From contig NZ_AMPG01000003.1 of assembly GCF_000299415.1 (NCBI RefSeq), forward strand, positions 186,001 to 250,000: a stretch of 64,000 nt of DNA, written 5' to 3'. Source of the stretch: Candidatus Microthrix parvicella Bio17-1 (lineage in GTDB: Bacteria > Actinomycetota > Acidimicrobiia > Acidimicrobiales > Microtrichaceae). Below, piece after piece: positions 11,716 to 51,886 of this stretch. Position 1 is the stretch's first letter, and each line of letters starts with the position of its first letter. Position numbers and translations under genes: made by a program. Below the pieces are notes generated by a model, which ran no database searches, was not told where the DNA came from, and worked only from the letters and a program-made list of their open reading frames with translations.

Positions 11716-11729
11716 TCCCAAGCGATCTC

Positions 11730-12059
11730 ATGGATCAATCGGTGGCACTCGATGAGGCCTGGTCGCTGAACCCGAGGGTGTCGCTTCGTCCCGAACGTTT
11801 TGGCGCACTCGCCTACCACTTTGGCAATCGCCGCCTGTCGTTCCTTCGCCATCCAGACCTGGTGAGCGTGGCCGAGGGTTTGGCCGACGCCGACTCGGTG
11901 GCGGACGCGCTGCGGGCCGCCGGGGTGGCCGAGGCCCGCTGGCCGTCCTTTCAACGGGCGCTGGCCACCTTGGCCGCCTCGGACATGGTGATACGACGCG
12001 ACGCCGTGGAACATCCCGAGCAAGCGATCAACCTCCAACCCGAGAGGAGTTCCCGGTGA
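11730..12059 (+). CDS. mftB: Mycofactocin biosynthesis chaperone MftB (RRE protein)
   Basis: 109-residue PqqD-like RiPP recognition element that binds the MftA leader and presents it to MftC. The core reads LNPRVSLRPERFGALAYHF and then NRRLSFLRHPDLVSVAEGL, the usual MftB pattern, followed by a short winged-helix-like segment. The ATG at 11730 was chosen because homology starts there; the frame stays open upstream across mftA. The stop overlaps the mftC GTG by four bases (GTGA at 12056-12059), indicating translational coupling. No strong ribosome-binding site, so coupling to mftA translation is likely. Confidence 0.93.
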   Translation: MDQSVALDEAWSLNPRVSLRPERFGALAYHFGNRRLSFLRHPDLVSVAEGLADADSVADALRAAGVAEARWPSFQRALATLAASDMVIRRDAVEHPEQAINLQPERSSR

Positions 12060-13276
12060 GCGATCAGATCACCCCCCTGACCCTTGGCCGCAGTGTTCCC
12101 GCCGTTGCTGATCAACCCCCGTCGGCCACGCGCAGCCTGACCGACGACTTCAAGCTGGGCCTTGAAGCCCCCATCTGCCTGACCTGGGAGCTGACGTACG
12201 CCTGCAACCTGGCCTGCCGTCACTGCCTGTCGTCATCCGGGCGTCGTGACCCCGCCGAGCTGAGCACCGCCGAGTGCTTCGGTGTGGTCGACGAACTGCA
12301 GCGACTTGGTGTGTTCTACGTCAACCTGGGCGGTGGCGAGCCCATGCTGCGCCGTGACTTCTTCGACATCGTGGAGTACTCGACCGCCCACGACGTCGGC
12401 GTGAAGTTCTCCACCAACGGCACCTATATCGACCCGGCGGCAGCCCGCCGTCTCGCCTCGATGGACTACCTCGACATCCAGGTGTCGATCGACGGCGCCA
12501 CCGCCGCGGTGAACGATCACGTGCGTGGGCAGGGCAGCTTCGCCACCGCCAGGACCGCCATGGACAATTTGGCCGCCGCCGACTTCGGCGCGTTCAAGAT
12601 CTCGGTGGTCGTCACGCGTCAGAACGTCGACCAGCTCGACGACTTCCGTGCGGTTGCCGACGAGTACGGCGCCCAGCTGCGCATCACCCGCCTGCGGCCC
12701 TCCGGACGGGGTGCCGACACCTGGGACGAGTTGCACCCGACCCAGCAGCAACAGCGTGACCTCTACCACTGGCTGCTCGACCGCCCCGACGTGCTCACCG
12801 GCGACTCGTTCTTCCACCTGAACGCCTTGGGCTCCGAGCAGTTGCCGGGGCTGAACCTGTGCGGCGCCGGGCGCGTGGTGTGCCTCATCGACCCCATCGG
12901 TGACGTGTACGCCTGCCCGTTCGTGATCCACGACGAGTTCCTGGCCGGCAACGTGCGCGATCAGGGCGGATTCACCGGCGTGTGGAAGGGCTCGGACCTG
13001 TTCACGTCATTGCGGGAGCCCACCTCGGCCGGTGCCTGCGCCAGTTGCGGGGCCTATGACGCATGCCAGGGTGGCTGCATGGCCTCGAAGTTCTTTGTTG
13101 GCCTGGAGATGGACGACCCCGACCCGGAGTGCGTGCTGGGCCATGGTGAGACGGCGCTGGCCGACAAGCGGGCAGCGGGCGAGCTGGTCGGTGTGGGATC
13201 GCCGCCCAGGCCTTCACAGGATCACAGCCGCCCGGGCGCAGCGGTGCCGGTCAGCATCGGTGCCCGGCTGTCCTGA
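12056..13276 (+). CDS. mftC: Mycofactocin radical SAM maturase MftC
   Basis: 406-residue radical SAM/SPASM enzyme. It oxidatively decarboxylates the C-terminal Tyr of MftA and then forms the Val-Tyr carbon-carbon cross-link. The radical SAM cluster motif is Cys50, Cys54, Cys57 (ACNLACRHC). The glycine-rich SAM segment GGGEPMLR follows. SPASM cysteines are visible in NLCGAGRVVC, YACPF and the GACASCGAYDACQGGC block. Overlaps mftB by four bases. In most mft clusters mftD follows immediately; here an OYE-family enzyme follows 66 bases later. Confidence 0.97.
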   Translation: MSDQITPLTLGRSVPAVADQPPSATRSLTDDFKLGLEAPICLTWELTYACNLACRHCLSSSGRRDPAELSTAECFGVVDELQRLGVFYVNLGGGEPMLRRDFFDIVEYSTAHDVGVKFSTNGTYIDPAAARRLASMDYLDIQVSIDGATAAVNDHVRGQGSFATARTAMDNLAAADFGAFKISVVVTRQNVDQLDDFRAVADEYGAQLRITRLRPSGRGADTWDELHPTQQQQRDLYHWLLDRPDVLTGDSFFHLNALGSEQLPGLNLCGAGRVVCLIDPIGDVYACPFVIHDEFLAGNVRDQGGFTGVWKGSDLFTSLREPTSAGACASCGAYDACQGGCMASKFFVGLEMDDPDPECVLGHGETALADKRAAGELVGVGSPPRPSQDHSRPGAAVPVSIGARLS

Positions 13277-15391: not shown

Positions 15392-17334
15392 CCGAGCGAC
15401 TGCTGTGGTCGCCGCTGCGGTTGGGGCCGGTCACGCTGCGAAACCGAATCGTGTTCTCTGCCCACCTCACCAACTACGCGGTCGATGGCAAACCGTCACC
15501 TCAGCACGCCGCCTACTACGCCGAACGCGCTGCGGGGGGTGCCGGGCTGATCATCACCGAGGAGCACTCCACCCATCCCACCGACTGGCCCTACGAAAAG
15601 CTGATCCACGGTTTCAACCGGGACGTGATCCCCGGTTACCGGGCGATCACCGAAGCGGTGCACGCACATCGCACGCCGATCTTCGCCCAGATCAACCACA
15701 ACGGTGGGCAGGCCTCGTCGATGTACACCCGGCTACCGGTGTGGGCGCCCTCGGCGGTGGCCGATCCGTTGTTTCGCGAGGTGCCCAAGGCCATCGACCA
15801 CGACGAGATCGCCGAGATCATCGCCGGGTACGCGCTCGTCGCCGCCAACTGCGCCGAGGGCGGCTTCGACGGCATCGAGTTGCAGTGCAGCCACAGCTCG
15901 ATCGTCCGCGGGTTCCTGTCGCCCGCCACCAACCGGCGCACCGACGCCTACGGCGGAACGCTGGCCAACCGGGCCCGACTGCTCCTCGAACTTGTGGCCG
16001 CGGTGAGGGCCGCCATCGGCCCCGACCTGGCATTGGGCGTGCGCCTGTGCGGCGACGAACTGATCGAAGGGGGCACCACCATCGAGGACGCGGTGGAGGT
16101 GGCGAAGATGGTGGAGGCCACCGGCGCAGTCGACTACCTCAACACCTCCATCGGTGTGGCCACCTCGTCGCTGTTCATGATCGAGGCGTCGATGCACATC
16201 CCGCCCGGCTACGCCTCGTTCATCCCCTCGGCCCTGCGCGAGGTGGTCGACCTGCCGGTGGTGGGCGTCGGCCGTTTCAAGGACCCGTTGCAGGCAGAGC
16301 GGGCGCTCACCGAGGGCCACTGCGATTTGGTGGGGGTGGTGCGCGGCCAGATCGCCGATGCCGCCTTCGCCGCCAAGTCGCGTGCGGGCAAAGTCGAGTC
16401 GGTGCGTCTGTGCCTGTCGTGCAACCAGGAGTGCGTCGGCCGGATGGGCCTCAACCGGTGGCTTGGATGTATCGAAAACCCGCGGACCGGCCGGGAGGCC
16501 GAGGGCGTGGGCGCGCCCCGACCGGTGGCGCTGTCCAGGTCGGTGCTGGTGGTCGGCGGCGGACCGGCCGGGCTTCAGGCCGCCATTGCGGCGGCGCGCA
16601 ACGGCCACCGGGTGACGCTCTGCGAGCGCCACGAACTCACCGGTGGGGCCGTTCGCCTGGCGGCCTCGGTGCCCAACCGGGCCGAGTTCGGCGACCTGGT
16701 GCGCAACCAGTTTCACGAGGCCACCCGGCTGGGCGTGGAGATCGAGACCGGGGTGACCCTTGACGCCGCCGAGGTGCTGCGCCGCCGACCTCACAGCGTC
16801 GTGGTGGCCACCGGCGCCCGTCCGGCTCGGCCCTACTGGGCGCCCGGGGACGAGCACCGAATCGTGGACGTGATCGAGGTGCTCGACGGCGCCGCGGCGC
16901 CGTCAGGACGGGTGGTGGTGCTCGACGAGCTGGGCTTCCATCAGGCCACGTCGGTCGCCGAGCTGCTGGCCGATCGGGGCTGTGACGTGGAGGTGATCAC
17001 GCCTGGCATGGTCGTGGGCCAGGACCTGGGCATCACGCTGGACCTGGAGACCTGGTGGATGCGGGCCGAGTCCAAAGGCATCGTTCAGACCACCGAGCTG
17101 GTGCCGATGGGCTGGGATCAGGGCTCGCTGACGCTGCAGCATCACCCCACCGGGACGATGCACGAGCGCACCCCCGACTGGGTGGTGCTGGCCGTGCCCG
17201 CCACCCCCGCCGAGGAGCTCTACCTGGAACTGCTCGATGCCGGCGTGGACGTGCACCGTGCGGGCGATGTGGTGGCTCCCCGCCGCGCGCACGCCGCGGT
17301 GGTCGACGGCGAACGCGTCGGCGCCGCCCTGTAG
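15388..17334 (+). CDS. Mycofactocin-system FadH/OYE-family oxidoreductase (second copy)
   Basis: 648-residue paralogue of the preceding gene with the same layout. The FMN barrel occupies about 1-330, the cluster motif CLSCNQEC plus a later Cys begins near 341, and a second dinucleotide domain opens with GGGPAG near 391. The ATG overlaps the upstream stop (ATGA at 15388-15391) and GGGGG lies just upstream, so the pair is translationally coupled. The two copies differ clearly along their length, pointing to an old duplication and perhaps different substrates or a heteromeric enzyme. Last gene of the first mft block; convergent with pyrE. Confidence 0.88.
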   Translation: MTERLLWSPLRLGPVTLRNRIVFSAHLTNYAVDGKPSPQHAAYYAERAAGGAGLIITEEHSTHPTDWPYEKLIHGFNRDVIPGYRAITEAVHAHRTPIFAQINHNGGQASSMYTRLPVWAPSAVADPLFREVPKAIDHDEIAEIIAGYALVAANCAEGGFDGIELQCSHSSIVRGFLSPATNRRTDAYGGTLANRARLLLELVAAVRAAIGPDLALGVRLCGDELIEGGTTIEDAVEVAKMVEATGAVDYLNTSIGVATSSLFMIEASMHIPPGYASFIPSALREVVDLPVVGVGRFKDPLQAERALTEGHCDLVGVVRGQIADAAFAAKSRAGKVESVRLCLSCNQECVGRMGLNRWLGCIENPRTGREAEGVGAPRPVALSRSVLVVGGGPAGLQAAIAAARNGHRVTLCERHELTGGAVRLAASVPNRAEFGDLVRNQFHEATRLGVEIETGVTLDAAEVLRRRPHSVVVATGARPARPYWAPGDEHRIVDVIEVLDGAAAPSGRVVVLDELGFHQATSVAELLADRGCDVEVITPGMVVGQDLGITLDLETWWMRAESKGIVQTTELVPMGWDQGSLTLQHHPTGTMHERTPDWVVLAVPATPAEELYLELLDAGVDVHRAGDVVAPRRAHAAVVDGERVGAAL

Positions 17335-26498: not shown

Positions 26499-28427
26499 AT
26501 GGCCGGTCCCCCAGGAGTCACCCCGAGCCATGGCGGAGACGATGTGCCCCATGGCGATCAGCGGGCGGCGCGGCGCGCCCCGGCACTCCCAGCAACCACC
26601 AGCCGACGGAGCCTGCTTGCGGCAGCGATGCTGTCGCCGGCGGTGATCGCCGCCGCTCGTCCCGGCAGTGCCCCGCGCCAGGACGACACGACGGCGCCCA
26701 AACCCGCCGACGCCACAGCGGCACCCGACGGTGCTGCTGGGCCGGGCACGACCGCTGCCGCATCCGACGCAAGCGCTTCGCGGGCCGGTCGGCCCGCCAT
26801 CCGCCCTCGCAAAGACTGGGGCTCGGCTGCGCCGCCCAGCGGCACGCTGCGCGCCATCGACAACCAACTGTTGGTGGTCCACCACACCGAGGCCCCCGGC
26901 AAGGCCTACGAGCCGTCTGCGGTGCCCGGGCTGATCGAAGGCATCTACGCGTTTCACACGTCCGACGAGTTGGGTTGGCCCGACATTGGGTTCAACTTCA
27001 TCGTCGATGAGTTCGGCACCATCTGGGAGGGCCGGCAGGGCAGCATCGATACCGCCATCGCGTGTGAGATCGAGGGCGGCGACGTCGGCCACAGCCAGCA
27101 CTGCGCCTTTCTGGGCGATTTCAACGTGTCGGCGCCGACCCCGTTGGCCATCGAGGCCATGGTGTCGTTGCTGGCATGGTTGGCCAACCGCGATCGCGTC
27201 CCGACCGGTGTGGGAGACACCACCAGTTTCATCTCGGAGGGCAACGACAAGTTCCCCGCCGGGCAGAAGGTGACCGTGCCCACCATCGCGGGCCACCGGG
27301 CCATAGCGGACGTGGGCTGCCCCGGGGATGCCACGCAGACCGAGGTGGTGCCACAGCTGCAGGGGCTGGTCAGCGGTGAGCGGTTGCGGATCGACCCCGA
27401 CGGTGATGGTGGCGGAACAACACCGGCCACCCCGACGGGTGACACGTCCTTGCCGGCGGCGGAGGACGACGCCACCACCACATCGGTCTTCGAGACCACA
27501 CCGGTGACCCGGCGCACGGTGGGCTTCGAGGCCTCGCCCCTGCCCGAGGCGCAGGTCAACGACCAGGTCGAGGGCAATGAGTGGGCGCCGGCGGCGATCA
27601 CCGGCGGCCTGGCAGCTGCGGCGGTGGGCGCCGGGGCGGTCTACGCGGCGCATCGACACCGGACCAACCGGCCGGCTCAACTGCCGGACCGCACCACGGC
27701 CGGTGATGCCCTTGGCGTCGGAGAGAGCGCTCGCCGTGCGGCGGACGCCCGAACCGTGGACGACGCCCGAGCGCTCGTCGTGCGGCCTGATGGCATCGAT
27801 GGCGGCTCGGCCGGGTGGATGCCTGCGGGGTCGGCCGCATCGGTGGGGTGGGTGATCTCTGCGGGGTGGAGCGATGATGCGCACGACAACGCGCTTCGGG
27901 AGTTGCGTGGGTTGGTCAAGGACCTGGAGATCGATCCGTCAACCCCGGAGGGGCGGGCCTTCGGCGATGCGGTCACCGCATCGCTGTCGGCCCTGGTGTC
28001 GGGCACGGCCGGCTCGGCGGCCCACGCCGCTGGGGAGGGCCCCGGGGCGGTGGTGTTCCTGCACAGCCGCAGGGCAACGTCGGTGGTCCGGCTGGGCAGC
28101 GGAGGGTTTGTGCTGCCCGGGGAAGGCGAGCAACCCGAGTGGGTGCCGGTTCGGGCCCGACTGCCGCTGCCTGCCGGGACGGGCGCAGGCGCCCCGGCGG
28201 AGGTCACCACGCTTGCTCGCCAGTGGCACCACCCCGAGCGCATGCCCGTGGCGGTGGCGTGGTTGGGATCGGCCGACGATGATGTGGTGATCGATGCATT
28301 GACCAGGGCTCACGACGGCACAATGGGCGAGGCCCCCAGCGGGGACGCGCTGGTTGACGACACCGTCAAGGTTCGGCAGGCGCTGTTGCGCGCAGGCGTG
28401 GACGATCTGGGCCTGGTGGTGCTGTGA
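26499..28427 (+). CDS. PGRP/N-acetylmuramoyl-L-alanine amidase-like exported protein
   Basis: 642 residues. A Tat-like signal (TSRRSLLAAAMLSPAVIAAA) lies near residues 33-52. A peptidoglycan-recognition/amidase_2 domain follows at about 100-290: VVHHTEAPG supplies one zinc His, and AGHRAIADVGCPGD the second His and the Cys. A Pro/Thr-rich linker and a hydrophobic span near 370-385 (GGLAAAAVGAGAVYAAH) follow, then a C-terminal domain of about 250 residues that I do not recognise. The start is supported by TAGGGT 8 bases upstream. The stop overlaps the ETF-alpha GTG by four bases, an unexpected coupling of a cell-wall enzyme to an electron-transfer gene. With this topology the C-terminal domain would be cytoplasmic. 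Confidence 0.82.
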   Translation: MAGPPGVTPSHGGDDVPHGDQRAARRAPALPATTSRRSLLAAAMLSPAVIAAARPGSAPRQDDTTAPKPADATAAPDGAAGPGTTAAASDASASRAGRPAIRPRKDWGSAAPPSGTLRAIDNQLLVVHHTEAPGKAYEPSAVPGLIEGIYAFHTSDELGWPDIGFNFIVDEFGTIWEGRQGSIDTAIACEIEGGDVGHSQHCAFLGDFNVSAPTPLAIEAMVSLLAWLANRDRVPTGVGDTTSFISEGNDKFPAGQKVTVPTIAGHRAIADVGCPGDATQTEVVPQLQGLVSGERLRIDPDGDGGGTTPATPTGDTSLPAAEDDATTTSVFETTPVTRRTVGFEASPLPEAQVNDQVEGNEWAPAAITGGLAAAAVGAGAVYAAHRHRTNRPAQLPDRTTAGDALGVGESARRAADARTVDDARALVVRPDGIDGGSAGWMPAGSAASVGWVISAGWSDDAHDNALRELRGLVKDLEIDPSTPEGRAFGDAVTASLSALVSGTAGSAAHAAGEGPGAVVFLHSRRATSVVRLGSGGFVLPGEGEQPEWVPVRARLPLPAGTGAGAPAEVTTLARQWHHPERMPVAVAWLGSADDDVVIDALTRAHDGTMGEAPSGDALVDDTVKVRQALLRAGVDDLGLVVL

Positions 28428-29371
28428 CCGACGCTGCCGCTGGCACGGTTGCGGTCCTCGCGGTACGTGGTGGCGAGTTGCCGACGGGAGCGCTCGAGTG
28501 CGTCGCCGAGGCGAACGGGGCCGCCGTCGTGGTGGGCGATGGCCTGGACGAGGCGATTGCGGCGTTGGGCGCCTTGGCGGCAGAGGTGTGGGCGTTGGAG
28601 TGGCCGGGGCGATGGTCGCCGCATGCGATCGCAGCGGCTGTGGCCGACCTGCTGAGCTCCACCGAGGTCGTGCTGACCCCCGCCACCCCCGACGGCCGTG
28701 ACCTGGCCCCGCACCTGGCGTTGGTGCTTGGCCGTGCGCTTTACGCCGGTGCGATCTCGGTTGGGTCGCACCGGGTGGTGCAGCACGGGCACGGCGGCCG
28801 GTCGCAGCTGACCTCCTCGCCACCTGGACCGTTTGTGGCCACGATGACCCCTGGCGTGCGGGCCATCCCCGCAACCACGGGTGCCGACACCATCCGCCAC
28901 GACCTGCCCGGACCCGTCGTCGGGTCGCCCGCTGAGGGTCCGGAGCCGCCCGAGTTGGTGGCGATTCACCCGCCCGACGCGTCCACCATGGATCTGTCCG
29001 AGGCGAAGAGCATCCTGGGTGGCGGCGCCGGGCTGGGCGGCGCCACCGAGTTTGGGCTGCTCGCCAAGGTGGCCGGGTTGCTCGGAGCATCGGTGGGTGC
29101 CACCCGGGTGGTCACCGACCAGGGCACGTTGGGTCACGAACGTCAGATTGGGACCACCGGCGTGGTGGTCAACCCCGATCGATATCTGGCGCTGGGCATT
29201 TCCGGTGCCGTGCAGCACACCGCCGGGTTGGGTGGCCCCGACCTGATCGTGTCGGTCAACACCGATGCGCACGCGCCCATGATGGCCATGGCCGACCTGG
29301 CGCTCACCGCCGATGCGCCGGCCACGCTGCGCGCCCTGGCCCGGCTGCTCGGTATCGACGTTCCCGGGTAG
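28424..29371 (+). CDS. etfA: Electron transfer flavoprotein alpha subunit (mycofactocin-associated type)
   Basis: 315 residues. The C-terminal FAD domain is clear: GGGAGLGG, GATRVVTDQG, IGTTGVVVNPDRYLALGISG, AVQHTAG and VNTDAHAPMMAMADLALTAD. The N-terminal domain is divergent and Ala/Val-rich. It pairs with ETF-beta at 32525, 3.2 kb away. The two subunit genes are separated by an acyl-CoA dehydrogenase and the fixCX-like genes, whereas most genomes keep etfBA adjacent. The GTG overlaps the amidase stop (GTGA). Divergence from housekeeping ETF and its neighbours indicate a dedicated, mycofactocin-linked ETF. Confidence 0.88.
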   Translation: MTDAAAGTVAVLAVRGGELPTGALECVAEANGAAVVVGDGLDEAIAALGALAAEVWALEWPGRWSPHAIAAAVADLLSSTEVVLTPATPDGRDLAPHLALVLGRALYAGAISVGSHRVVQHGHGGRSQLTSSPPGPFVATMTPGVRAIPATTGADTIRHDLPGPVVGSPAEGPEPPELVAIHPPDASTMDLSEAKSILGGGAGLGGATEFGLLAKVAGLLGASVGATRVVTDQGTLGHERQIGTTGVVVNPDRYLALGISGAVQHTAGLGGPDLIVSVNTDAHAPMMAMADLALTADAPATLRALARLLGIDVPG

Positions 29372-29417
29372 AGCTGGTTTCAGCCCCCGGGGGTTGCTTC
29401 CGGCGAAGGCGGAGCCA

Positions 29418-30680
29418 TCAGTTCTTGAGCAGGTCCTTAAAGGCGCTCGTGGTGTCGATGCCCAGCTCTTTGGGCAGGCCCAGAACCCGCTCGGCGACGA
29501 TGTTGCGCAAGGTCTCATCGCTGCCGCCCGCGATGCGCATGCCGGGGGTGCCGCACACGAACGTTGACCAGGCGTAGGTGCCCCACTCGCCCGAGTCGGC
29601 GATGAGGCGGGGCCCGAGCAACGAGGCCACCAGCTCGGCGGTGGCGGTGAGGTTGGCGGTCAGGGCCAGCTTGCCGATCGACATCTCCGGCCCGGGCACG
29701 CCCCCTGCCCGCACCTTGGCCATCGCCCGCTGGGACGTCATCCTGGCCACCTGGAAGCCCGTGTACACCTTGGCCAACTCGTTTCGCAGCACCCGGTCAT
29801 CCGCCAGGTCGAAGTGTCGCATCATCTCGATCAGCCGGGTGGATGAGCCCGTGCCGCCGCCCCCGCCCCCGCCGATGGAGGCTCGCTCGTTCATCAGCGT
29901 GGTGAGCGCCACGGTCCAACCCTGGTTGACATCGCCCAGGCGATGGTCGTCGGGCACCCTCACGTTCTCGAAGAACACCTCGTTGAACGCGGTGCCGCCG
30001 GTCATCTGGCGCAGCGGCCGCACCTCGACGCCCGGTGCGTGCATGTCGACCACAAATCCGGTGAGGCCCCGGTGCTTGGGCAGATTGGGATCGGTGCGGC
30101 AGATCACCTCGCCCACGTCGGCGTAGTGGGCGCCCGACGTCCAGACCTTCTGCCCGTTGAGCAGCCATTCGTCGCCATCCCGCTCGGCCCGCATCTGAAG
30201 CCCGGCAAGGTCGGATCCGGCGGCGGGCTCGCTGAACAGCTGGCAGCCCACCAGGTCGCCCCGGTACATGCCGGGAAGCACCCTTGCCTTCACCGGCTCG
30301 GTGGCGTGAGCCAGGATCGTCGGTGCAACCATGCCGAAGCCGATGCCGAAGAACGACATGTTGGGGATCCGGTATTTGCTTTCCAGAGTCCGGTAGACGG
30401 CCTCGTGGGAGCGGGACAGGCCACGGCCGCCCAGCTCGGGCGGCCCGGTGATCCACGACAGGTTGGCATCGTTGCGGGTGGCCAGCCAGGCCTTGCCCTC
30501 GGCCAACTGCCGGGCCTCGGTCTCGGGGTCGAGTTCCTCAAACAGCGCGACGTCATCGTCGCCGTCACCCCACACGAACTCGGTGGCCGTGGGCCTTGGT
30601 GAGGAGTTGGCCTCGAGGAAGTCGGTGACCTCGGCGGTGAACTCTTCGACCGTCGGTGCCTCCGGGTTGCTCTGGTGCAT
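29418..30680 (-). CDS. Acyl-CoA dehydrogenase family protein
   Basis: 420-residue FAD flavoenzyme; classical members oxidise acyl-CoA to enoyl-CoA and pass electrons to ETF. Blocks visible: LGGRGLSRSHEAVYRTLE, QLFSEPAAGSDLAGL, LNGQKVWTSGAHYAD, MTGGTAFNEVFFENVRVPD and the C-terminal GSDETLRNIVAERVLGLP. A run of seven glycines near residue 270 (ERASIGGGGGGG) is unusual. The start has a GAGGGGA ribosome-binding site. Divergent from the fixC-like gene across a 113-base region holding a perfect inverted repeat. Likely an electron donor to the surrounding ETF; substrate unknown. Confidence 0.9.
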   Translation of the reverse strand: MHQSNPEAPTVEEFTAEVTDFLEANSSPRPTATEFVWGDGDDDVALFEELDPETEARQLAEGKAWLATRNDANLSWITGPPELGGRGLSRSHEAVYRTLESKYRIPNMSFFGIGFGMVAPTILAHATEPVKARVLPGMYRGDLVGCQLFSEPAAGSDLAGLQMRAERDGDEWLLNGQKVWTSGAHYADVGEVICRTDPNLPKHRGLTGFVVDMHAPGVEVRPLRQMTGGTAFNEVFFENVRVPDDHRLGDVNQGWTVALTTLMNERASIGGGGGGGTGSSTRLIEMMRHFDLADDRVLRNELAKVYTGFQVARMTSQRAMAKVRAGGVPGPEMSIGKLALTANLTATAELVASLLGPRLIADSGEWGTYAWSTFVCGTPGMRIAGGSDETLRNIVAERVLGLPKELGIDTTSAFKDLLKN

Positions 30681-30704
30681 CTCGTCCCCTCACGCTGACC
30701 TAAT

Positions 30705-30726
30705 CACTTGACCAGGCGGTCAAGTG
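30705..30726. promoter_or_regulatory. Perfect 9+9 inverted repeat, candidate operator
   Basis: Arms CACTTGACC (30705-30713) and GGTCAAGTG (30718-30726) are exact reverse complements around the spacer AGGC. It sits 25 bases upstream of the acyl-CoA dehydrogenase start and about 55 bases before the fixC-like -10 box. This is the layout expected for a TetR-family operator controlling both divergent units. No regulator gene is encoded next to it. Confidence 0.65.
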
Positions 30727-30780
30727 TCAGCGGCAAAGCTAGCGCAGCGCTGCGGAATCCGATCCGTGGCGTTGCAGCGG

Positions 30781-30786
30781 TACTCT
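30781..30786 (+). promoter_or_regulatory. Predicted -10 box (TACTCT), leaderless fixC-like operon
   Basis: TACTCT ends 7 bases before the GTG at 30794. It would drive the run from fixC-like to the FAD oxidase. Confidence 0.5.
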
Positions 30787-30793
30787 GCAGGCC

Positions 30794-32158
30794 GTGCCGA
30801 CGATCGATCCCAACCCCTCCCCAGAGGCTGCGGCCGCGCCCGGCGCGGCGAATCGGATCGATGCCGTGGTGGTCGGCGCGGGCCCGGCGGGCTCTGCAGC
30901 GGCGCTGCAGTTGGCGCGGGCCGGCCGGTCGGTGGTGCTCCTGGAGCGGGGCCTGTTTCCCGGTTCGAAGAACATGTACGGCGGGGTGATCTACGGCCGC
31001 ATTCTCGATGACCTGGTGCCCAACTGGACCGAGGAGATGCCGATCCAGCGATGGGTGACCCGCCGCCAGACCATGATGCTCACCGACTCCCAGGCGATGA
31101 CGGTGGACTTCCGGACCGAGGCGTGGGGCAGGCCCCCCTACAACGGGGCCACGGCGTTTCGGGGTGACTTCGACGCCTGGCTCGCCGGCCATGCGGTGGA
31201 CGCGGGGGCCCGGCTGGTGTGCTCCACCACCGCCACCGGGTTGATCTTCGACGAATCCGGTCCGTCCAGGCGGGTGGTTGGCGTCCGGACGGACCGTCCC
31301 GACGGCGACCTGTACGCGGATGTGGTCATCGCAGCCGACGGGGTCAACTCGTTCCTGGCCAAAGAGGCCGGGATGTACCCGCACACCGACCCGGCCAACT
31401 TCACGGTTGGCATCAAAGAGGTGGTGGCGCTGCCGCGAACGGTGATCGAGGATCGTTTCGGGGTGCGGGGGCGGGAGGGCGTCGACATCGAGATCATCGG
31501 CGCCACCGGTGACGTGCCAGGCGGCGGGTTCGTCTACACCAACCTCGACTCGGTGGCGATCGGGCTCGTGTTGTCGCTGCCCGCCCTGGCGGCGGGTGGC
31601 AAACGCCCGGAGGAACTGCTGGCGCAGTTGAAGGCCCATCCTGCCATCGCCCCGCTGATCGACGGCGGGGACGTCAAGGAGTTCTCCGCTCACGTCATCC
31701 CCGAAGCGGGCTACGACATGATGCCCGACCTGGTCACCGACGGCATGGTGGTCTGCGGTGACGCCGCGGCCATGTGCCTGGCGGCCGGCATCTGGCTGGA
31801 GGGCGTCAACTTTGCGATCGGGGCCGGAGCCGCCGCGGGCCGGGCCGCAGCGGTGGCGTTGGATGCCGGCGACACGAGCGCCGATGGTTTGGGGAGCTAC
31901 GTCGACCGCCTGGAGCGGAGCTTTGTGATGACCGACCACCGACGCCTGCGCCAGGCGCCGCATCTGGTGATGAGCGACCGTATGCAGCAGTCCTACCCGC
32001 AGTTGGTGTGTAACACGGTTGAGCGTCTGTTCCGGGTGGACAACCCAACGCCGAAGCTGCCGATGCACGAGATCGTTCTGGACGAGGTGCGCCGTAGCGG
32101 CCTGCGCGCCTTCGACCTGGCACGCGACGGCCTGGCTGCCCTGCGAACCTTTGGATGA
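30794..32158 (+). CDS. FixC-like ETF:quinone oxidoreductase flavoprotein
   Basis: 454-residue geranylgeranyl-reductase/FixC-type FAD protein. The FAD-binding GAGPAGSAAA motif is near residues 28-37, followed by LLERG. GGVIYGR, the GDAAAMC block and a C-terminal segment YPQLVCNTVERLFRVDNPTPK resemble FixC and ETF-QO. These proteins accept electrons from ETF and pass them via a FixX-type ferredoxin to quinone. The next gene is that ferredoxin. The start GTG is supported by TACTCT 7 bases upstream. First gene of the operon that continues through mftE and mftF. Confidence 0.88.
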   Translation: MPTIDPNPSPEAAAAPGAANRIDAVVVGAGPAGSAAALQLARAGRSVVLLERGLFPGSKNMYGGVIYGRILDDLVPNWTEEMPIQRWVTRRQTMMLTDSQAMTVDFRTEAWGRPPYNGATAFRGDFDAWLAGHAVDAGARLVCSTTATGLIFDESGPSRRVVGVRTDRPDGDLYADVVIAADGVNSFLAKEAGMYPHTDPANFTVGIKEVVALPRTVIEDRFGVRGREGVDIEIIGATGDVPGGGFVYTNLDSVAIGLVLSLPALAAGGKRPEELLAQLKAHPAIAPLIDGGDVKEFSAHVIPEAGYDMMPDLVTDGMVVCGDAAAMCLAAGIWLEGVNFAIGAGAAAGRAAAVALDAGDTSADGLGSYVDRLERSFVMTDHRRLRQAPHLVMSDRMQQSYPQLVCNTVERLFRVDNPTPKLPMHEIVLDEVRRSGLRAFDLARDGLAALRTFG

Positions 32159-32219
32159 TGGGCGACTGTTGGATGACCGGTGACCTGGGATGCCGGGGGT
32201 CTGGATGAGTGGAGCAGCG

Positions 32220-32528
32220 ATGACCAGCGCAGCGATCGTCAGCCGCGAGATCAACTTCGAAACCCTCATGGGCCACACCGAGTTTCGTGTTGATCCAGAT
32301 CGGGCCCACATCACCGTGGACTCCGACATCTGTCGCGACTGCTCGGTTCGGGGCTGTCTGATCGCCTGCCCGGCACAACTGTTTGTGCTCACCTCGGAGG
32401 GCGGCATCTTGTTCAACTACGAGCAGTGCTTTGAGTGCGGCACCTGCTACATGGTGTGCAACGAGGAGGGGGCCATCACCTGGACCTATCCCGAGGGGGG
32501 CCACGGCGTGGTGTTCCACCGAGCATGA
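32220..32528 (+). CDS. FixX-like ferredoxin
   Basis: 102-residue ferredoxin-like partner of the FixC-like protein. Cys motifs CRDCSVRGCLIAC and CFECGTCYMVC give eight cysteines, enough for two clusters, although canonical FixX carries one 4Fe-4S. The end YPEGGHGVVFHRA resembles FixX. The ATG at 32220 has GGAG five bases upstream; in-frame ATGs at 32190 and 32205 are possible. The stop overlaps the ETF-beta ATG (ATGA at 32525-32528). Confidence 0.86.
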   Translation: MTSAAIVSREINFETLMGHTEFRVDPDRAHITVDSDICRDCSVRGCLIACPAQLFVLTSEGGILFNYEQCFECGTCYMVCNEEGAITWTYPEGGHGVVFHRA

Positions 32529-33508
32529 GTGCAACGACAACATCGGCCGCCCCGGGCGTCGTGGTGGCCGCCCTGAAATGGGCCGACCTGTTTGTGGACG
32601 TCGACCCGCTGACGGGCGAGGCGAGTGCCGACCGAAGGGCTCGTGGCCTCTCGGCCGCAGACGAGGCCGCGCTCGAGTTGGCGCTGACCCTGGGTGAGGC
32701 GCTGGGCCGTCGGGTGGTGGCGATCACCGTCGGCGGCCCCGACGCAGCCGCAGGCCTTCGTGGGGCCCTCGCTGTTGGCGCCGACCGGGCGGTGCTGGCA
32801 ACGCCTGCCAATGGCGCCGAGGCGCACTCGCTCGGCGTGGCCCGAGCCCTGGCATGGGCGCTTGATGCCGCCTCCTTGCTCGATCCGGTGGTGGTGTGCG
32901 GCGACTACTCGGCCGACCGGGGCAGCGGGTCGGTACCCGCCGCCCTGGCGGCGTTGGCCGGGCTGCCTCAGGCGTTGGGCCTGGTGCAGGTGGACGTTGC
33001 CGTCAACGGGGGCGGTGACCCGGCCATCAGCGTGCAACGCCGGTTGGACGGCGCCCGGCGTGAGGAGTTGCTGGTGCGCCCTCCGGCGGTCTTGTCGGTG
33101 GAGGGAGCGGTGGCGCGGTTGCGTCGGGCCCCCCTCAGCGGAACGTTGGCGGGTGGCGCGGCTGCCGTTGAAACGCTGACCGTGCCCGCCGACGTGTTTG
33201 CAGCGGTGCCCCCACGTGGCATGGGCGAGGTCGGCCCGGCAGTTCCCAGGACCAAGGTGATGCCCTCACCGGTGGGCGACGCGGCGCTGGCCCGCTTGGA
33301 ACAACTCACCGACACCCAGTCGGTGGCCGCGCCCGCCCAGGCGTTGGTCGTGTCGCCGGAGGAGGCGGCCCGGCACCTGCTGGAGGCGTGGGCGGCCAGC
33401 GGGGGAACCGTGCCCGAGGGCGTAGTCGGCGACGGTGTGGTTGCCGACGGCGTGGTGGGCGGGGCGACGTCCGAGAACACCGCGAGCGATGGGCCCGAAG
33501 GTCGTTAG
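32525..33508 (+). CDS. etfB: Electron transfer flavoprotein beta subunit (mycofactocin-associated type)
   Basis: 327 residues, against about 250-260 for usual ETF-beta. AMP/FAD-site blocks: VVAALKWADLFVDVDPLTG at the N-terminus, VGADRAVLAT, and CGDYSADRGSGSVPAALAAL, matching the G-x-Q-x2-D block with Tyr-Ser changes. The extra C-terminal 60-70 residues include a Val/Gly-rich repeat (GVVGDGVVADGVVGG) with no obvious fold. ATG overlaps fixX-like; the 3' end overlaps mftE by 20 bases. Partner is the ETF-alpha at 28424. Confidence 0.86.
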   Translation: MSATTTSAAPGVVVAALKWADLFVDVDPLTGEASADRRARGLSAADEAALELALTLGEALGRRVVAITVGGPDAAAGLRGALAVGADRAVLATPANGAEAHSLGVARALAWALDAASLLDPVVVCGDYSADRGSGSVPAALAALAGLPQALGLVQVDVAVNGGGDPAISVQRRLDGARREELLVRPPAVLSVEGAVARLRRAPLSGTLAGGAAAVETLTVPADVFAAVPPRGMGEVGPAVPRTKVMPSPVGDAALARLEQLTDTQSVAAPAQALVVSPEEAARHLLEAWAASGGTVPEGVVGDGVVADGVVGGATSENTASDGPEGR

Positions 33509-34226
33509 CGGGACCGCCCTCGGCGGGATGATCTCGACCGACGTCCCGGACGATGCGGTGTTGCTGGTTCCCGTTGGATCCACCGAGCAACACGGGCCGC
33601 ACCTGCCGCTCGACACCGACACCCGCATCGCCGCCGCAATCGCGCACGCGGTGGCCCTCGATCCGCCCAAACCCTTGCGACGCGGACAGGCGCTGGTGGC
33701 GCCTGCGTTGCCGGTCGGCTCGTCGGGCGAACACGCCGGGTTTCCCGGCACGTTGTCCATCGGCTCGGCCGCCCTCGAGCTGGTGCTCCTCGAGCTGGTT
33801 CGCTCGGCCACCTCGCCGGGAGGGGGCCCGTTCAGGGCCGTGCTGATCATCAACGGTCATGGCGGCAATGCCGGCCCGGTGGTGTCTGCGCTGCGCACCC
33901 TGGAGGGCGAGGGTCGCCACGTGTCGGCCTGGGCGCCCCACGTTGAAGGCGGTGACGCTCATGCCGGTTTCACCGAGACTTCGTTGGGCCTGCACCTGTT
34001 CGGCGATCTCGTCCGAACCGAGGCCTCAGAGCCGGGAGCGTTGCGGCCCGTCGCCGAGTTGATGGCTCAGCTGCGCACCGGCGGCGTGGCCGCCGTTGCC
34101 CCCAACGGGGTGCTCGGCGACCCCACCAGAGCCAATGCTCAAGAAGGCGCCGCCCTGTTCGCCCACCTGGTCCTCTCAGCACATGGCGCGCTCGCCGCCC
34201 TGGTCAAGGCTGCATGGAGGAGTTGA
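33489..34226 (+). CDS. mftE: Mycofactocin biosynthesis peptidyl-dipeptidase MftE (creatininase family)
   Basis: 245-residue metal-dependent amidohydrolase that releases the cross-linked Val-Tyr dipeptide core from MftC-processed MftA. Creatininase motifs: LLVPVGSTEQHGPHLPLDTDT with metal-binding Glu, His and Asp; SSGEHAGFPGTLSI; and INGHGGN. The ATG at 33489 lies inside the ETF-beta 3' end, giving a 20-base overlap. It lies 20 kb from mftABC, whereas in mycobacteria all six genes are adjacent. Confidence 0.93.
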   Translation: MGPKVVSGTALGGMISTDVPDDAVLLVPVGSTEQHGPHLPLDTDTRIAAAIAHAVALDPPKPLRRGQALVAPALPVGSSGEHAGFPGTLSIGSAALELVLLELVRSATSPGGGPFRAVLIINGHGGNAGPVVSALRTLEGEGRHVSAWAPHVEGGDAHAGFTETSLGLHLFGDLVRTEASEPGALRPVAELMAQLRTGGVAAVAPNGVLGDPTRANAQEGAALFAHLVLSAHGALAALVKAAWRS

Positions 34227-34260
34227 GGGTGAGGCAATCCATCGTGGCAATCTGAGGTCG

Positions 34261-35073
34261 ATGGAGAATCCCAAATCACCCGATGACAACCCCCGCGTTG
34301 CCCTGATCACCGGGGCCGCCCGCGGGATCGGCGCAGCAGTGGCTCGCCGCCTGGCCTCCGACGGTTGGTCGTTGGTGCTCACCGATCTCGTCGGCCATGA
34401 GAAGGTGCTGACCTACGCCCTGCCCACCCTGGCCGACCTCGAGGCCGTGGCGGCCGATTGCGGTCCGGACACGATGGTCTACGTGGCCGACGTGCGTGAA
34501 CAGGGTCAGATGGACGCTGCGACCGCGCTGGCCGTCGGCCGGTTTGGGGGCCTCGATGCCGCCATTGGGGCGGCGGGCGTGATCTGGGGTGGCGAGCCGC
34601 TGTGGCGCACGCCGGATGCGGCCTGGAGAACGATGATCGACGTCAACCTGGGTGGCATCTGGAAGCTCGCACACGCCGCGATTCCGGCCCTCCTACAGCG
34701 ACCACAGCCCCGCAGCGGACGGTTTGTGGCGCTGGCATCGGCGGCAAGCGTCCGGGGTATGCCGCAACTCGCCGCCTACAGCGCATCAAAGGCCGGTGTC
34801 GCCGGTCTGGTGCGCTCGTTGGCCGCCGAGCTGGGACCCGACAACATCACGGCCAACGCCGTGGGCCCGGGCTCCACCCGGACCGCCATGTTGGAGGCGT
34901 CCGCGGGCGTGTACGGCCTGCGACGAGTTGAAGACTTCGGTCGTCAACAACCGATCGGCCGGCTGCTGGAGCCCGAGGAGGTGGCCGACGCGGTCGCCTG
35001 GCTGTGCTCGCCCGGCTCCTCAGGGGTCACAGGGGCGCTCCTACCGGTGGACGGCGGCATGACGGCGGCGTGA
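34261..35073 (+). CDS. Mycofactocin-coupled SDR family oxidoreductase
   Basis: 270-residue short-chain dehydrogenase. The cofactor motif TGAARGIG is at 17-24 and the catalytic pair is YSASK with Tyr173 and Lys177. An insertion after the first beta-alpha unit (about residues 42-62) is typical of the mycofactocin-coupled SDR subfamily, in which NAD is thought to stay bound and to be reoxidised by mycofactocin. Position between mftE and mftF supports that assignment. The stop overlaps the mftF GTG (GTGA at 35070-35073). Alcohol substrate unknown. Confidence 0.88.
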   Translation: MENPKSPDDNPRVALITGAARGIGAAVARRLASDGWSLVLTDLVGHEKVLTYALPTLADLEAVAADCGPDTMVYVADVREQGQMDAATALAVGRFGGLDAAIGAAGVIWGGEPLWRTPDAAWRTMIDVNLGGIWKLAHAAIPALLQRPQPRSGRFVALASAASVRGMPQLAAYSASKAGVAGLVRSLAAELGPDNITANAVGPGSTRTAMLEASAGVYGLRRVEDFGRQQPIGRLLEPEEVADAVAWLCSPGSSGVTGALLPVDGGMTAA

Positions 35074-36707
35074 CCGCGCCCCGCGCTTGCCACGCCGCCT
35101 GGGTCTTGGCTCCCGGGGTTCGTCGCGTCGAGGACGGCCGTGTGCTTATCGGCGGTTCGCCCACCACGCTGACGCGGTTGAGTGCGACGGGCTCCCAGGT
35201 GCTCGACGCCGCACTCGGTGGCGGGGAAGTGTCCTCGGCTGAAGAGCCTGCGACCGTGAAGCTGCTCGCTCGACTGGAGCGCAGCGGCTTGTTGATCGCC
35301 ACGCCTCCGCCGCCGTCCGCCGCTGCCGTCCGTGGTCTCCTCGATCAGCTCACCGTCGTCGTGCCGGTGCACAACGATGCCACTGGGCTGAACGTGCTGC
35401 TGGCGTCGTTTCTGGAAGCCGAACGCGAGCTGGGGATGGTCGGCCCTCAAGGGAGACTGTCGACGCGCTGCGTCCTGGTCGACGATGGCTCCGACGCACC
35501 CGGCGACGTCTCCGTGGTGGCGCGGCGCTTTGGGGCGGAGGTGATCCGCCGTCGACGCAGCGGCGGGCCGGGGGCGGCCCGCACGACCGGCCTTGAGGTG
35601 GTGGGTACGCCGCTGGTGGCTTTTCTCGATGCCGACGTGTCGGTGACGCCGGGCTGGTTGGCCGGCGTTGCGGGCCACTTTTCCGAGCGGTCGGGCGCCG
35701 CCGTCCCGGCCATCGTCGCCCCCCGGGTGTCGGTTTGGCCAGGGGGGGCGCCCGGGACTGTGTCGAATGGCGTGATCGAGGTCTACGAGCGGCACCACTC
35801 ACCCCTGGACCTCGGGACCATCGGTGGTGCCATCGCGCCGGGTGCCCGGCTGGCATATGCGCCGTCGGCGGCCTGGGTGGCCCGGGCGGGGGCGATCCGC
35901 GTCGTCGGAGGGTTCGACCCCGACCTTCGCTACGGCGAGGACGTCGATCTGATCTGGAGGCTGGTGGAAGCGGGCCTCACCGCCAGGTACGAGCCCCGCA
36001 GCGTGGTGTACCACCGGACCAGACCGACGGCGCGGGCGTGGGCCGAGCAGCGCGTTCGCTATGGCACCTCGGCCGCACCGTTGGCGGTGCGCCACCCCGG
36101 TTCGCTCGCGCCGGTTGCCGTGTCGCCGTGGTCGCTGATCGCGTGGTTGGCGGTGGGCCTTGGTCACCCCGGCGTCGGCGTTGCGTTGGGCGCCGGGTCC
36201 ACCGCCGCGCTGGCCCGACGCCTGAAGGTGGCCAACCCGGGGAGCGAGGCGCTCAGGCTGGCCGGCCGGGGCAACCTGTTGGCCGGCCCGCAGCTGGCAC
36301 GCGGCTTGATCCGTCCGTGGTGGCCAATCACCCTTGCGCTGGCATTGCGAAGCCCACGGTGGCGAAGGTTGGCCTTCGGCGCAGTCGCGGCCACGGTCGG
36401 ACGTGCATTGATGCAGGGTCGGCACCGCTCCCCGGTCGCTGGCAATGGCGATGTGGCCCGCTCCGATCGGCCACAGCGACCCCAGAGGGTGCGGCGAGCA
36501 CGTTCCGTCGGTTTCGTCGCGTCTCTGGCGGTTGCTGACGACGTCGCCTACTCGGCCGGTGTCTGGTGGGGCGTTGCACTGGAGCTGCGCCATCGTCCTC
36601 GCACCGCGCATCTCGCCGTTGGGGCGTTGTTACCGCGGGTCGGCGGCACCGGTGACGGAGCGCTCGAACGACTACGGTCGGCACGCAAACGAGGGGAGAC
36701 GCGGTGA
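35070..36707 (+). CDS. mftF: Mycofactocin glycosyltransferase MftF
   Basis: 545-residue glycosyltransferase that adds a glucose chain to the mycofactocin core. Family-2 fold: VVPVHND near 98, DDG at 138-140 and the metal-binding DADVSVTP at 187-194; YGEDVDLIWRL is the acceptor-side ED block. C-terminal hydrophobic segments (about 345-365 and 420-450) suggest membrane association. Residues 10-78 (VLAPGVRRVEDGRVLIGGSP, LTRLSATGSQVLDAAL, LLARLERSGLL) resemble a PqqD/MftB-like recognition domain. GTG overlaps the SDR stop; the stop overlaps the next gene (GTGA at 36704-36707). Confidence 0.92.
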   Translation: MTAPRACHAAWVLAPGVRRVEDGRVLIGGSPTTLTRLSATGSQVLDAALGGGEVSSAEEPATVKLLARLERSGLLIATPPPPSAAAVRGLLDQLTVVVPVHNDATGLNVLLASFLEAERELGMVGPQGRLSTRCVLVDDGSDAPGDVSVVARRFGAEVIRRRRSGGPGAARTTGLEVVGTPLVAFLDADVSVTPGWLAGVAGHFSERSGAAVPAIVAPRVSVWPGGAPGTVSNGVIEVYERHHSPLDLGTIGGAIAPGARLAYAPSAAWVARAGAIRVVGGFDPDLRYGEDVDLIWRLVEAGLTARYEPRSVVYHRTRPTARAWAEQRVRYGTSAAPLAVRHPGSLAPVAVSPWSLIAWLAVGLGHPGVGVALGAGSTAALARRLKVANPGSEALRLAGRGNLLAGPQLARGLIRPWWPITLALALRSPRWRRLAFGAVAATVGRALMQGRHRSPVAGNGDVARSDRPQRPQRVRRARSVGFVASLAVADDVAYSAGVWWGVALELRHRPRTAHLAVGALLPRVGGTGDGALERLRSARKRGETR

Positions 36708-38098
36708 ACGAAACCAAACAGGACGGTGCCGGCGACGTGGTCGAGGCGCTCTGTGCCGTCGTGCCATCGGAGCGCGTCACAGCGGCCGCCGATATCGGAG
36801 AGGATCTGCTCCACGACGAGGCCATCGGCATCTTTGGGGTGCGCCCGCTCGCCATGGTGGCGCCGCAGTCATCCGCCGAGGTGGCGGCCGTGCTCGCCTG
36901 GGCCAATGGCACCGGAACCCCGGTCACGGTTCGAGGCGCCGGTACCGGGCTGTCCGGCGGGGCGGTCCCGGAGGCCGAGGGCATTTTGCTGAGCACCGAC
37001 GCCATGGCCGACATCATCGAGATCGATACCGACAACTCCATGGCCGTCGTGGGCCCCGGCGTGCGGCTCGACCAGCTCGACGAAGCGCTCGCTCCGCTTG
37101 GGCTCGTCTATCCGGTGTTTCCCGGCGAGTACTCCTCCAGCCTCGGCGGCAACGTGGCCACCAATGCCGGCGGTATGCGGGCGGTGAAGTACGGGGTCAC
37201 CCGACATCACGTGCTCGGTGTCGAGGCGGTGCTGGCCTCGGGCGAGGTCATCACCACCGGCGGCAAGTTTGTGAAGGCCACCACCGGCTACGACCTGACC
37301 CAACTGATTCTGGGTTCGGAGGGCACCCTGGCGGTGGTCACCCAGGCCACGTTGAAGCTCAGCCCAAGGTTGCCGCACGCGGCCACGGTGCTGGCCCCGT
37401 TCGCCGGCATGGAGGAGGTGACCGAGGCGGTGCCCAAGGTGGTGGCTTCGGGCGCCGACCCGATGATCCTCGAGTACATCGACATGATCACGCTGGCTGC
37501 CATGGGCACCACGCTCGGCCTCGACCTGGGCATCCCCCAGGAGGTCAAGGACACGGCGCTTGCGTACCTGGTGGTCGTGCTGGAGTCGGCCCACGAGGAC
37601 CGGTTGGAAGCCGACACCCAGGGGGTGGCCGAACAGCTGGCCGAACTGGGCGCGATCGACGTGTACGTGTTGCCGCCCAAGGCGGCCACCGAGCTGATCG
37701 ACGCCCGTGAGAAGGCGTTCTGGGTGGCCAAGGCCAACAACGCCAACGAGATCATCGATGTTGTCGTGCCCCGATCGGCCATGCCCGAGTTCATGAACCG
37801 CATCAGCGAGTTGGCCTCCGAAACCGCCTCCTGGATCGCGGGTTGCGGGCACGCCGGCGACGGCAACGTTCACATGTCGGTGTTTCAGGGCGATCCCGAG
37901 GTGCTCGCGGACGTGATGAAACGCCTGTACGCCATCGGCATGGAGCTCGGCGGGGCCATTTCGGGCGAGCATGGCCTGGGTACCGCCAAGCGGGGCTACT
38001 TCCTCGAACTGGAGGACCCGGCCAAGATCGAGCTGATGCGCCGGATCAAAGTTGCGTTCGATCCCAACGACATTCTGAATCCCGGCAAGGTGCTGTAA
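36704..38098 (+). CDS. GlcD-like FAD-linked oxidase (glycolate/D-lactate dehydrogenase type)
   Basis: 464-residue VAO-fold flavoprotein. The FAD-binding domain has VRGAGTGLSGGAVP, FPGEYSSSLGGNVATNAGG and LGSEGTLAVVT. The C-terminal domain has ASWIAGCGHAGDGNVHMSVF and SGEHGLGTAKRG with metal/substrate histidines, ending FDPNDILNPGKVL. Such enzymes oxidise 2-hydroxy acids and pass electrons to quinone or ETF. The GTG overlaps the mftF stop by four bases, so it is translationally coupled to a mycofactocin gene. MftD, an unrelated FMN 2-hydroxy-acid-oxidase homologue, is absent from the window. Whether this enzyme substitutes for it or is a client is open. Confidence 0.9.
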   Translation: MNETKQDGAGDVVEALCAVVPSERVTAAADIGEDLLHDEAIGIFGVRPLAMVAPQSSAEVAAVLAWANGTGTPVTVRGAGTGLSGGAVPEAEGILLSTDAMADIIEIDTDNSMAVVGPGVRLDQLDEALAPLGLVYPVFPGEYSSSLGGNVATNAGGMRAVKYGVTRHHVLGVEAVLASGEVITTGGKFVKATTGYDLTQLILGSEGTLAVVTQATLKLSPRLPHAATVLAPFAGMEEVTEAVPKVVASGADPMILEYIDMITLAAMGTTLGLDLGIPQEVKDTALAYLVVVLESAHEDRLEADTQGVAEQLAELGAIDVYVLPPKAATELIDAREKAFWVAKANNANEIIDVVVPRSAMPEFMNRISELASETASWIAGCGHAGDGNVHMSVFQGDPEVLADVMKRLYAIGMELGGAISGEHGLGTAKRGYFLELEDPAKIELMRRIKVAFDPNDILNPGKVL

Positions 38099-51877: not shown

Positions 51878-51886
51878 GGCGCTGAT

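Follow-up and report, generated by a model that had tools for sequence, protein, structure and literature searches.

Genes for the biosynthesis of mycofactocin in Candidatus Microthrix parvicella Bio17-1 are accompanied by genes for two oxidoreductases of the FadH/old yellow enzyme (OYE) family, an electron transfer flavoprotein (ETF) and FixC- and FixX-like proteins. They lie within a 64,000-nucleotide stretch of DNA, referred to here as the window (NZ_AMPG01000003.1, positions 186,001 to 250,000, or G000:C3:186001-250000 in our handles for genome and contig; the genome measures 4.2 Mb in 13 contigs). With few exceptions, Actinomycetota that carry the mycofactocin maturase gene mftC have either this module or the gene for MftD (TIGR03966). 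As judged from protein families and gene arrangement, OYE1, OYE2, EtfA, FixC, FixX and EtfB together are, on balance, probably a non-homologous replacement of MftD in mycofactocin biosynthesis. The replaced partner is most likely MftD and not MftG, the protein named in an original prediction made from the letters of the window alone.

Deletion of mftD in M. smegmatis abolishes mycofactocins and leads to accumulation of the intermediate AHDP, which MftD deaminates to premycofactocin (PMC7491314); the step has been described as aerobic (PMC8406134). TIGR03966 was reported in most, but not all, species (Haft 2011, PMC3023750). Genomes without MftD should therefore need another enzyme for this step.

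Association with mycofactocin genes and exclusion of MftD

Gene identities were assigned by NCBIfam profile scans, with presence defined as a score over the curated cut-off; divergent modules score below it. We used a phylum sample of 396 Actinomycetota genomes and an order sample of 188 genomes from the order of the window, many of them incomplete, which share the ETF genomes G000, G294, G322, G091 and G284. A further set, the named loci, comprises the best 80 of 218 relatives, in which many contigs or fetched stretches end early. MftD was tested in 50 of these 80, and nine of the 50 genomes look identical to sampled ones (L107, L117, L120, L122, L138, L149, L151, L174 and L180).

The ETF genes are linked to mycofactocin, as the original prediction had proposed. 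The ETF beta family mft_etfB scores over its cut-off in 8 of the 396 phylum genomes (207-333 bits; next best 110), and mftC does so in 53, including all eight (p = 6e-8). The alpha family, mft_etfA, identifies the same 8 of the 53 mftC genomes, and OYE1 passes the cut-off of its model in 7 of the 53, all of them ETF genomes, the eighth having its OYE1 gene clipped at a contig end. In the order sample mft_etfA is present in 24 of 188 genomes and mftC in 23 of these, the exception (G483) being 74% complete. ETF-type genomes retain mftC, mftE, mftF and, where looked at, the client dehydrogenases, so that some enzyme should provide the MftD step.

MftD was found in 44 of the 53 mftC genomes of the phylum sample, the ETF module in eight and both in none (p = 1e-8). 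The ninth genome without MftD, G186, carries a divergent cluster of radical SAM, OYE, etfA, fixC, fixX and mftF genes. In the genome of the window the best match to MftD, on contig C10, scores 280 bits against a cut-off of 471, and the ETF-type genomes G091, G188 and G252 gave no MftD-family match at E = 1e-20. The order sample, with MftD over its cut-off in 43 of 188 genomes, presents a similar picture: among 69 mftC genomes, 40 have MftD only, 22 ETF only, one both and six neither (p = 1.3e-11). Of these six, G464 and G548 have a divergent module next to mftC, and for two more (G496 and G519) the contig stops a short way from the locus; G509 is counted by cut-offs. Among the 50 named ETF genomes, MftD is over its cut-off in two, Saccharopolyspora flava and S. 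ipomoeae; Amycolatopsis acidicola is one of those with no MftD over the cut-off.

The mftC-like, OYE, EtfA, FixC, FixX and mftF-like proteins of the G186 cluster (L220) are roughly 29-46% identical to those of the window, and the cluster may be a sister system with a different product.

The exclusion is not due to ancestry alone, as the two states have switched repeatedly. Both MftD and ETF occur in eight family codes of the order sample; for f87 this holds through G453 and its MftD relatives alone. A tree of mftC with 102 rows, built by a quick method with SH-aLRT support only, requires 14 changes of the MftD and ETF states, and for the ETF group its starred branches make at least six unavoidable; this count sets aside seven rows with neither state and one ambiguous row. 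The tree omits genomes with partial mftC (G237, G409 and G540) or none, and scores G464, G548 and G186 as lacking ETF despite their divergent modules; the quick method is less reliable for long branches, such as those of G186 and G446. Nine independent pairs differ in MftD: ETF differs in the opposite direction in 5-6 of these, in the same direction in none, and not at all in 3-4 (p = 0.031-0.0625).

The conserved gene unit

Comparison across genomes defines a conserved unit, mftC-OYE1-OYE2-etfA-fixC-fixX-etfB-mftE. Among the 80 named loci, fixC was found in 74, fixX in 71, etfB in 67, mftE in 57, OYE2 in 56, mftF in 55, OYE1 in 31 and mftC in 24, and mftD (>200 bits) in none. OYE1 is the next sought gene after mftC, on the same strand, in 24 of the 24 loci that show mftC (within about 200 bp in 22), and etfB lies before mftE, with both on the same strand, in all 57 loci that have the two genes (within about 200 bp in 41); OYE2 often adjoins etfA in other genomes. 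A spacing count from OYE1 to OYE2 was not used, as OYE2 can exceed the OYE1 threshold. The order etfA-fixC-fixX-etfB-mftE recurs in the seven other ETF genomes of the phylum sample, with breaks: the cluster forms two divergent parts in G284 and is spread over contigs in G322, and mftC lies elsewhere in G091, G188 and G294. In M. tuberculosis, mftD lies between mftC and mftE (Rv0693-Rv0695; PMC3023750); OYE1 and OYE2 occupy this slot.

The proteins of the module

OYE1 and OYE2 align over their full length with trimethylamine dehydrogenase (TMADH) and histamine dehydrogenase, through a TIM barrel, a 4Fe-4S region and a dinucleotide domain, and thus belong to the TMADH class, which also contains the amine dehydrogenase Pno; 6-hydroxypseudooxynicotine dehydrogenase is a further relative. 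AlphaFold models (pLDDT 75 for OYE2 and 79 for OYE1) predict the same fold class. All four cysteines of the 4Fe-4S cluster are present in 63 of 63 OYE2 sequences, and they occur in 31-37 of 37 OYE1 sequences. The first dinucleotide motif is intact throughout (37/37 OYE1, 63/63 OYE2). The NADPH motif of FadH, a second GxGxxG (G502/G504/G507), is lost from OYE2, which has G, F and A at these positions in 63 of 63 sequences; matches to the pattern elsewhere at residues 480-560 (five OYE2 sequences and one OYE1) fall in linkers. OYE2 His164 is invariant and aligns with the histidine of the A-H-S stretch of TMADH, which we take to be the catalytic His172.

Several homologues of OYE1 miss one or more of the 4Fe-4S cysteines in the region of window residues 335-354; none of the 63 OYE2 sequences does.

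The FixC-like protein has as its nearest solved structure 7koe_C, the FixC subunit of EtfABCX (3e-68). The quinone outlet foreseen in the original prediction is thus likely, with quinone as the predicted end of the ETF/FixCX chain. Residues 241-246 of EtfA read QIGTTG in all eight mft_etfA sequences and QVGQTG in the three solved ETF alpha subunits shown. The parts of PMC6085437 consulted provided no usable motif for ETF bifurcation.

Proposed mechanism

From the gene content, the conserved order, the exclusion of MftD, the cluster cysteines and an NADPH motif that is lost in OYE2 and altered in OYE1, we infer the cofactors, substrate, partners, direction of electron flow and quinone acceptor of the following scheme. 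MftC and MftE would make AHDP as usual. OYE2, OYE1 or both, each with FMN, a 4Fe-4S cluster and an ADP/FAD domain, would oxidise the amine carbon of AHDP to an imine, the hydrolysis of which would yield ammonia and premycofactocin, an alpha-keto amide. Electrons would pass from the 4Fe-4S cluster to EtfAB, on to FixC/FixX and finally to menaquinone, in place of oxygen in the MftD reaction. Premycofactocin would then be glycosylated by MftF and serve the nicotinoprotein SDR and the NDMA-type dehydrogenases.

A precedent for such a chain is the amine dehydrogenase Pno, reported to donate electrons through EtfAB and ETF:quinone oxidoreductase (ETF-QO) to quinone; the genes for EtfAB and ETF-QO are clustered with its own (PMC7688666). 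By analogy, the module of the window has parts that match those of the Pno chain, with FixC and FixX instead of a fused ETF-QO. Midpoint potentials have been given as -255 mV for premycofactocin and -74 mV for menaquinone (PMC11778925); these concern reoxidation of the cofactor, not the deamination.

The presence of two divergent OYEs, retained together, also invites a double role, in which premycofactocin synthesis falls to one OYE and mycofactocinol oxidation to the other, with the ETF and FixCX shared between them. The cluster cysteines vary in OYE1 and not in OYE2, and G186 possesses only an OYE2-like gene, both of which would fit such a division of labour. Mycofactocinol oxidation by the module has left no direct sign, however, and MftD genomes that lack MftG manage without the module, so that we regard a double role as doubtful. 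An extension of similar standing, which we offer as speculation and consider unlikely, is that a second, MftD-independent type of mycofactocin system exists in many lineages of Acidimicrobiia and in some Pseudonocardiaceae: here, the TMADH-like pair with its dedicated ETF/FixCX would couple both premycofactocin synthesis and mycofactocinol reoxidation to the menaquinone pool, and the cofactor would be made and recycled without oxygen.

Evidence against a replacement of MftD

Several observations weigh against the module being a replacement of MftD, some from genomes and some from the proteins. One of the six order-sample genomes with neither system, G459, has mftC-mftE without MftD or the module nearby. 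Conversely, three genomes combine MftD with the ETF module. In G453, mftC occurs at two loci, one of them with mftD, and none lies in the 5.3 kb upstream of the ETF genes; S. flava and S. ipomoeae (L221 and L222) have a lone mftD besides the ETF-type cluster, with no mftC within the 20 kb read, and S. ipomoeae has in addition a second cluster, mftC-mftD-mftE. For this reason the mycofactocin of S. erythraea, a species stated in PMC11162802, citing another paper, to produce methylated mycofactocin, would not prove replacement if that species also has a stray mftD. MftD lies within 5 kb of mftC in just 27 of the 44 MftD genomes, and mftC is distant from the OYE and ETF genes in some ETF genomes (by 17 kb in G294; on other contigs in G091, G188 and G516). 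The shared slot is therefore not universal.

At the protein level, some OYE1 sequences lack cluster cysteines (6/37 at C338), and the NADPH motif of OYE1 is one residue short yet still glycine-rich, GGxx[GA], in 30 of 37 sequences. With the motif lost from OYE2 and only shortened in OYE1, the argument that the enzymes do without NADPH is therefore strong for OYE2 and weak for OYE1. OYE2 Leu22, invariant in 63 sequences, aligns with the C30A position of 1djq, and OYE2 thus lacks the cysteine that links FMN covalently in TMADH, presumably Cys30. An enzyme 82% identical to Pno likewise has non-covalent FMN (PMC7688666). Comparison of structures singles out no member of the class, with 2-naphthoyl-CoA reductase, TMADH, FadH and histamine dehydrogenase lying within about 3.5 Z for OYE2 and 1.6 Z for OYE1. 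Finally, the need for two OYEs is left unexplained by the replacement of MftD.

By sequence, the closest solved relatives of OYE2 are reductases, with FadH at 256 bits and 2-naphthoyl-CoA reductase at 246 bits, ahead of the amine dehydrogenases at 177-187 bits. This would suit a different cofactor, if OYE1 and OYE2 changed AHDP in another way (for example by desaturation or reduction) and the ETF served that reaction. Yet the same client families stand beside the module (SDR in 20 and NDMA-dependent alcohol dehydrogenase in 14 of the 80 named loci), the precursor has the usual VY core at its end, and production of methylated mycofactocin is attributed to S. erythraea (PMC11162802); we therefore consider a different cofactor very improbable.

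Relation to MftG

The original prediction had the ETF/FixCX module stand in for MftG, as a mycofactocinol oxidase that would restore the cofactor and hand its electrons on to quinone. Transfer from ETF through FixC/X to quinone is the usual activity of these families, and the module travels with the mft genes. MftG was sought with TIGR03970 only, the smaller MftG families TIGR04542 and NF038210 lying outside the search. By this model, the genome of the window has no MftG over the cut-off of 387, in agreement with the absence noted earlier from the window, and its best reading frame of the GMC family matches in two segments, which score 253 and 78 bits. None of the eight ETF genomes of the phylum sample has MftG over its cut-off, and MftG and the ETF genes coexist in only 2 of 62 further ETF entries; the latter exclude genomes already tested and G473, G482 and G502 (doubles of named ones), with at least two double entries remaining. 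Furthermore, MftG was found by three models in 234 of 311 mftC genomes in a published survey, and the account given there leaves open what serves the remainder (PMC11778925).

MftG is over its cut-off in 12 of our 53 mftC genomes, however, all of them in family f37 (12 of its 14); none of the remaining 39 has it, whether they carry ETF or not. The ETF genes mark no gap left by MftG, because MftD-type genomes outside f37 lack MftG equally. The association of ETF with MftG has a p-value of 0.17, against 1e-8 for MftD, and replacement of MftG would leave the loss of MftD unaccounted for. Our share of MftG genomes (12/53) is far below the published one; the present sample is spread over the phylum and one of the three models was used. 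Co-occurrence of the ETF set with mftC, one part of the survey suggested at the outset, was thus borne out, while mutual exclusion with mftG was not; the ETF genes exclude MftD instead, and we consider it improbable that the module replaces MftG.

Arrangement of genes in the window

The genes of the window are listed in Table 1. The original prediction placed the system at 28424-36707, and the genes there are confirmed, with EtfA and EtfB over their cut-offs and FixC- and FixX-like proteins followed by mftE, SDR and mftF. This frame is too narrow, since the unit also takes in mftA to mftC and both OYE genes, which occupy 11563-17334 and end some 11 kb before etfA. The intervening 11 kb between OYE2 and etfA contains HrpB, an aldehyde dehydrogenase-like gene and others, and lies outside the conserved unit, judged by other genomes. 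From fixX through mftF, plus-strand neighbours overlap or almost touch, as ATGA at fixX/etfB and GTGA at SDR/mftF. Neither the FixC-like protein (326 bits against a cut-off of 610) nor the FixX-like protein (56 against 166) is a member of the respective NCBIfam model.

Table 1. Mycofactocin-related and neighbouring genes in the window, numbered from its first nucleotide.
Feature	Position	Strand	Basis
NDMA-dependent alcohol dehydrogenase, mycofactocin client family	10229..11404	-	TIGR03989, 540 bits vs cut-off 440
mftB-like protein within ORF (true start internal)	11541..12059	+	placed between mftA and mftC, by position alone
mftA precursor peptide, C-terminal end IDGMCGVY	11563..11715	+	translation of open reading frame (ORF)
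mftC, radical SAM maturase	12056..13276	+	TIGR03962, 595 bits vs cut-off 265
OYE1, mycofactocin-system FadH/OYE family oxidoreductase 1 (approximate start)	13349..15391	+	TIGR03996, 734 bits vs cut-off 628; 4Fe-4S Cys motif
OYE2, mycofactocin-system FadH/OYE family oxidoreductase 2 (approximate start)	15403..17334	+	TIGR03997, 973 bits vs cut-off 793
mft_etfA, ETF alpha subunit	28424..29371	+	NF038209 equivalog, 315 bits vs cut-off 240
Acyl-CoA dehydrogenase, between etfA and fixC, divergent from fixC	29418..30680	-	well under named-family cut-offs
fixC-like ETF:quinone oxidoreductase flavoprotein	30794..32158	+	FixC families, 337 and 326 bits, under curated cut-offs
fixX-like ferredoxin, two four-Cys motifs	32190..32528	+	FixX family, 56 bits vs cut-off 166 (under); Fer4 domains
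mft_etfB, ETF beta subunit	32525..33508	+	TIGR04503, 333 bits vs cut-off 200
mftE peptidase (approximate start)	33489..34226	+	TIGR03964, 255 bits vs cut-off 172
Mycofactocin-coupled SDR ORF (domain from ~34294)	34096..35073	+	TIGR04504, 370 bits vs cut-off 250
mftF glycosyltransferase	35070..36707	+	TIGR03965, 296 bits vs cut-off 280
GlcD-like FAD-linked oxidase	36704..38098		start 4 bp inside mftF

The acyl-CoA dehydrogenase, which had been taken as woven into the mycofactocin locus, does not share in this arrangement. It is ruled out as an ETF donor by its position on the minus strand and by its absence beside the ETF genes in the seven other phylum-sample genomes and in the 80 named loci (>100 bits); among the genomes examined, only that of the window has it inserted between etfA and fixC. 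Similarly, the GlcD-like oxidase was ruled out as an ETF donor, as no such gene stands beside the mft genes in any of the 80 named loci (>100 bits).

A perfect palindrome, CACTTGACC-AGGC-GGTCAAGTG, lies at 30705-30726, in the interval from which the acyl-CoA dehydrogenase and fixC genes diverge. Its core, TTGACCN4GGTCAA, resembles a TetR operator and occurs once in the window, against 0.05 copies expected with one mismatch allowed. Cytochrome bd genes are present at 50396-53011; no tie between these and the mycofactocin genes was found.

Relation to known systems

Like MftD, the module would deaminate AHDP oxidatively, and in many genomes it takes the same place in the cluster. MftD is a single protein of the FMN dehydrogenase type that acts in a step described as aerobic (PMC8406134), whereas the module comprises six proteins of unrelated family with a predicted ETF/quinone outlet. 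Pno, TMADH and histamine dehydrogenase, with EtfAB and ETF-QO, resemble it as three-domain Fe-S flavoproteins whose genes accompany etfAB and that of a quinone oxidoreductase, and in the oxidation of an amine with ETF as acceptor, predicted here and described for Pno (PMC7688666). Unlike these systems, the module lacks the flavin-linking cysteine, has separate FixC and FixX instead of a fused ETF-QO, and is tied to mycofactocin genes. With FixABCX and EtfABCX it shares EtfA, EtfB, FixC and FixX encoded together, although its FixC and FixX fall under the NCBIfam cut-offs.

The window proteins are members of the NCBIfam families mft_etfA, mft_etfB, mycofact_OYE_1 and mycofact_OYE_2, the names of which convey an association with mycofactocin and not a role. 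Mycofactocin-like clusters described in Saccharopolyspora (PMC11162802) include 17 without mftD and with a TIGR03997 OYE gene of unknown function; the same IDGMCGVY ending is described there for mycofactocin precursors, and antiSMASH 6.1.1 is reported to have missed the clusters without mftD. Section 28 of that paper, on these clusters, makes no mention of ETF/FixCX, of an exclusion test or of a mechanism. In the collection of papers searched, none has both 'mycofactocin' and 'electron transfer flavoprotein', and none among the matches listed joins mycofactocin with EtfB or FixC. Nor did the matches listed, judged by title and the opening of the abstract, include a proposal that OYE/ETF proteins replace MftD, in a scope without the original MftD paper, the MftM paper and the 2019 mycofactocin review. 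The names of the mycofactocin-associated ETF and OYE families, and the absence of mftD together with an OYE gene in Saccharopolyspora, were therefore already known; the phylum-wide exclusion of MftD, the ETF/FixCX part and the proposed mechanism are added here.

Implications for mycofactocin biology

MftD creates the redox-active centre of mycofactocin, in the step described as aerobic. If the module does replace it, a replacement linked to the respiratory chain would account for a continued ability to make the cofactor in mftC genomes that lack MftD, and would give a role to four NCBIfam families so far named by association alone. It would also mean that recognition rules requiring mftD overlook a whole type of mycofactocin cluster. 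The proposal offers a concrete assay, in which AHDP is combined with OYE and ETF.

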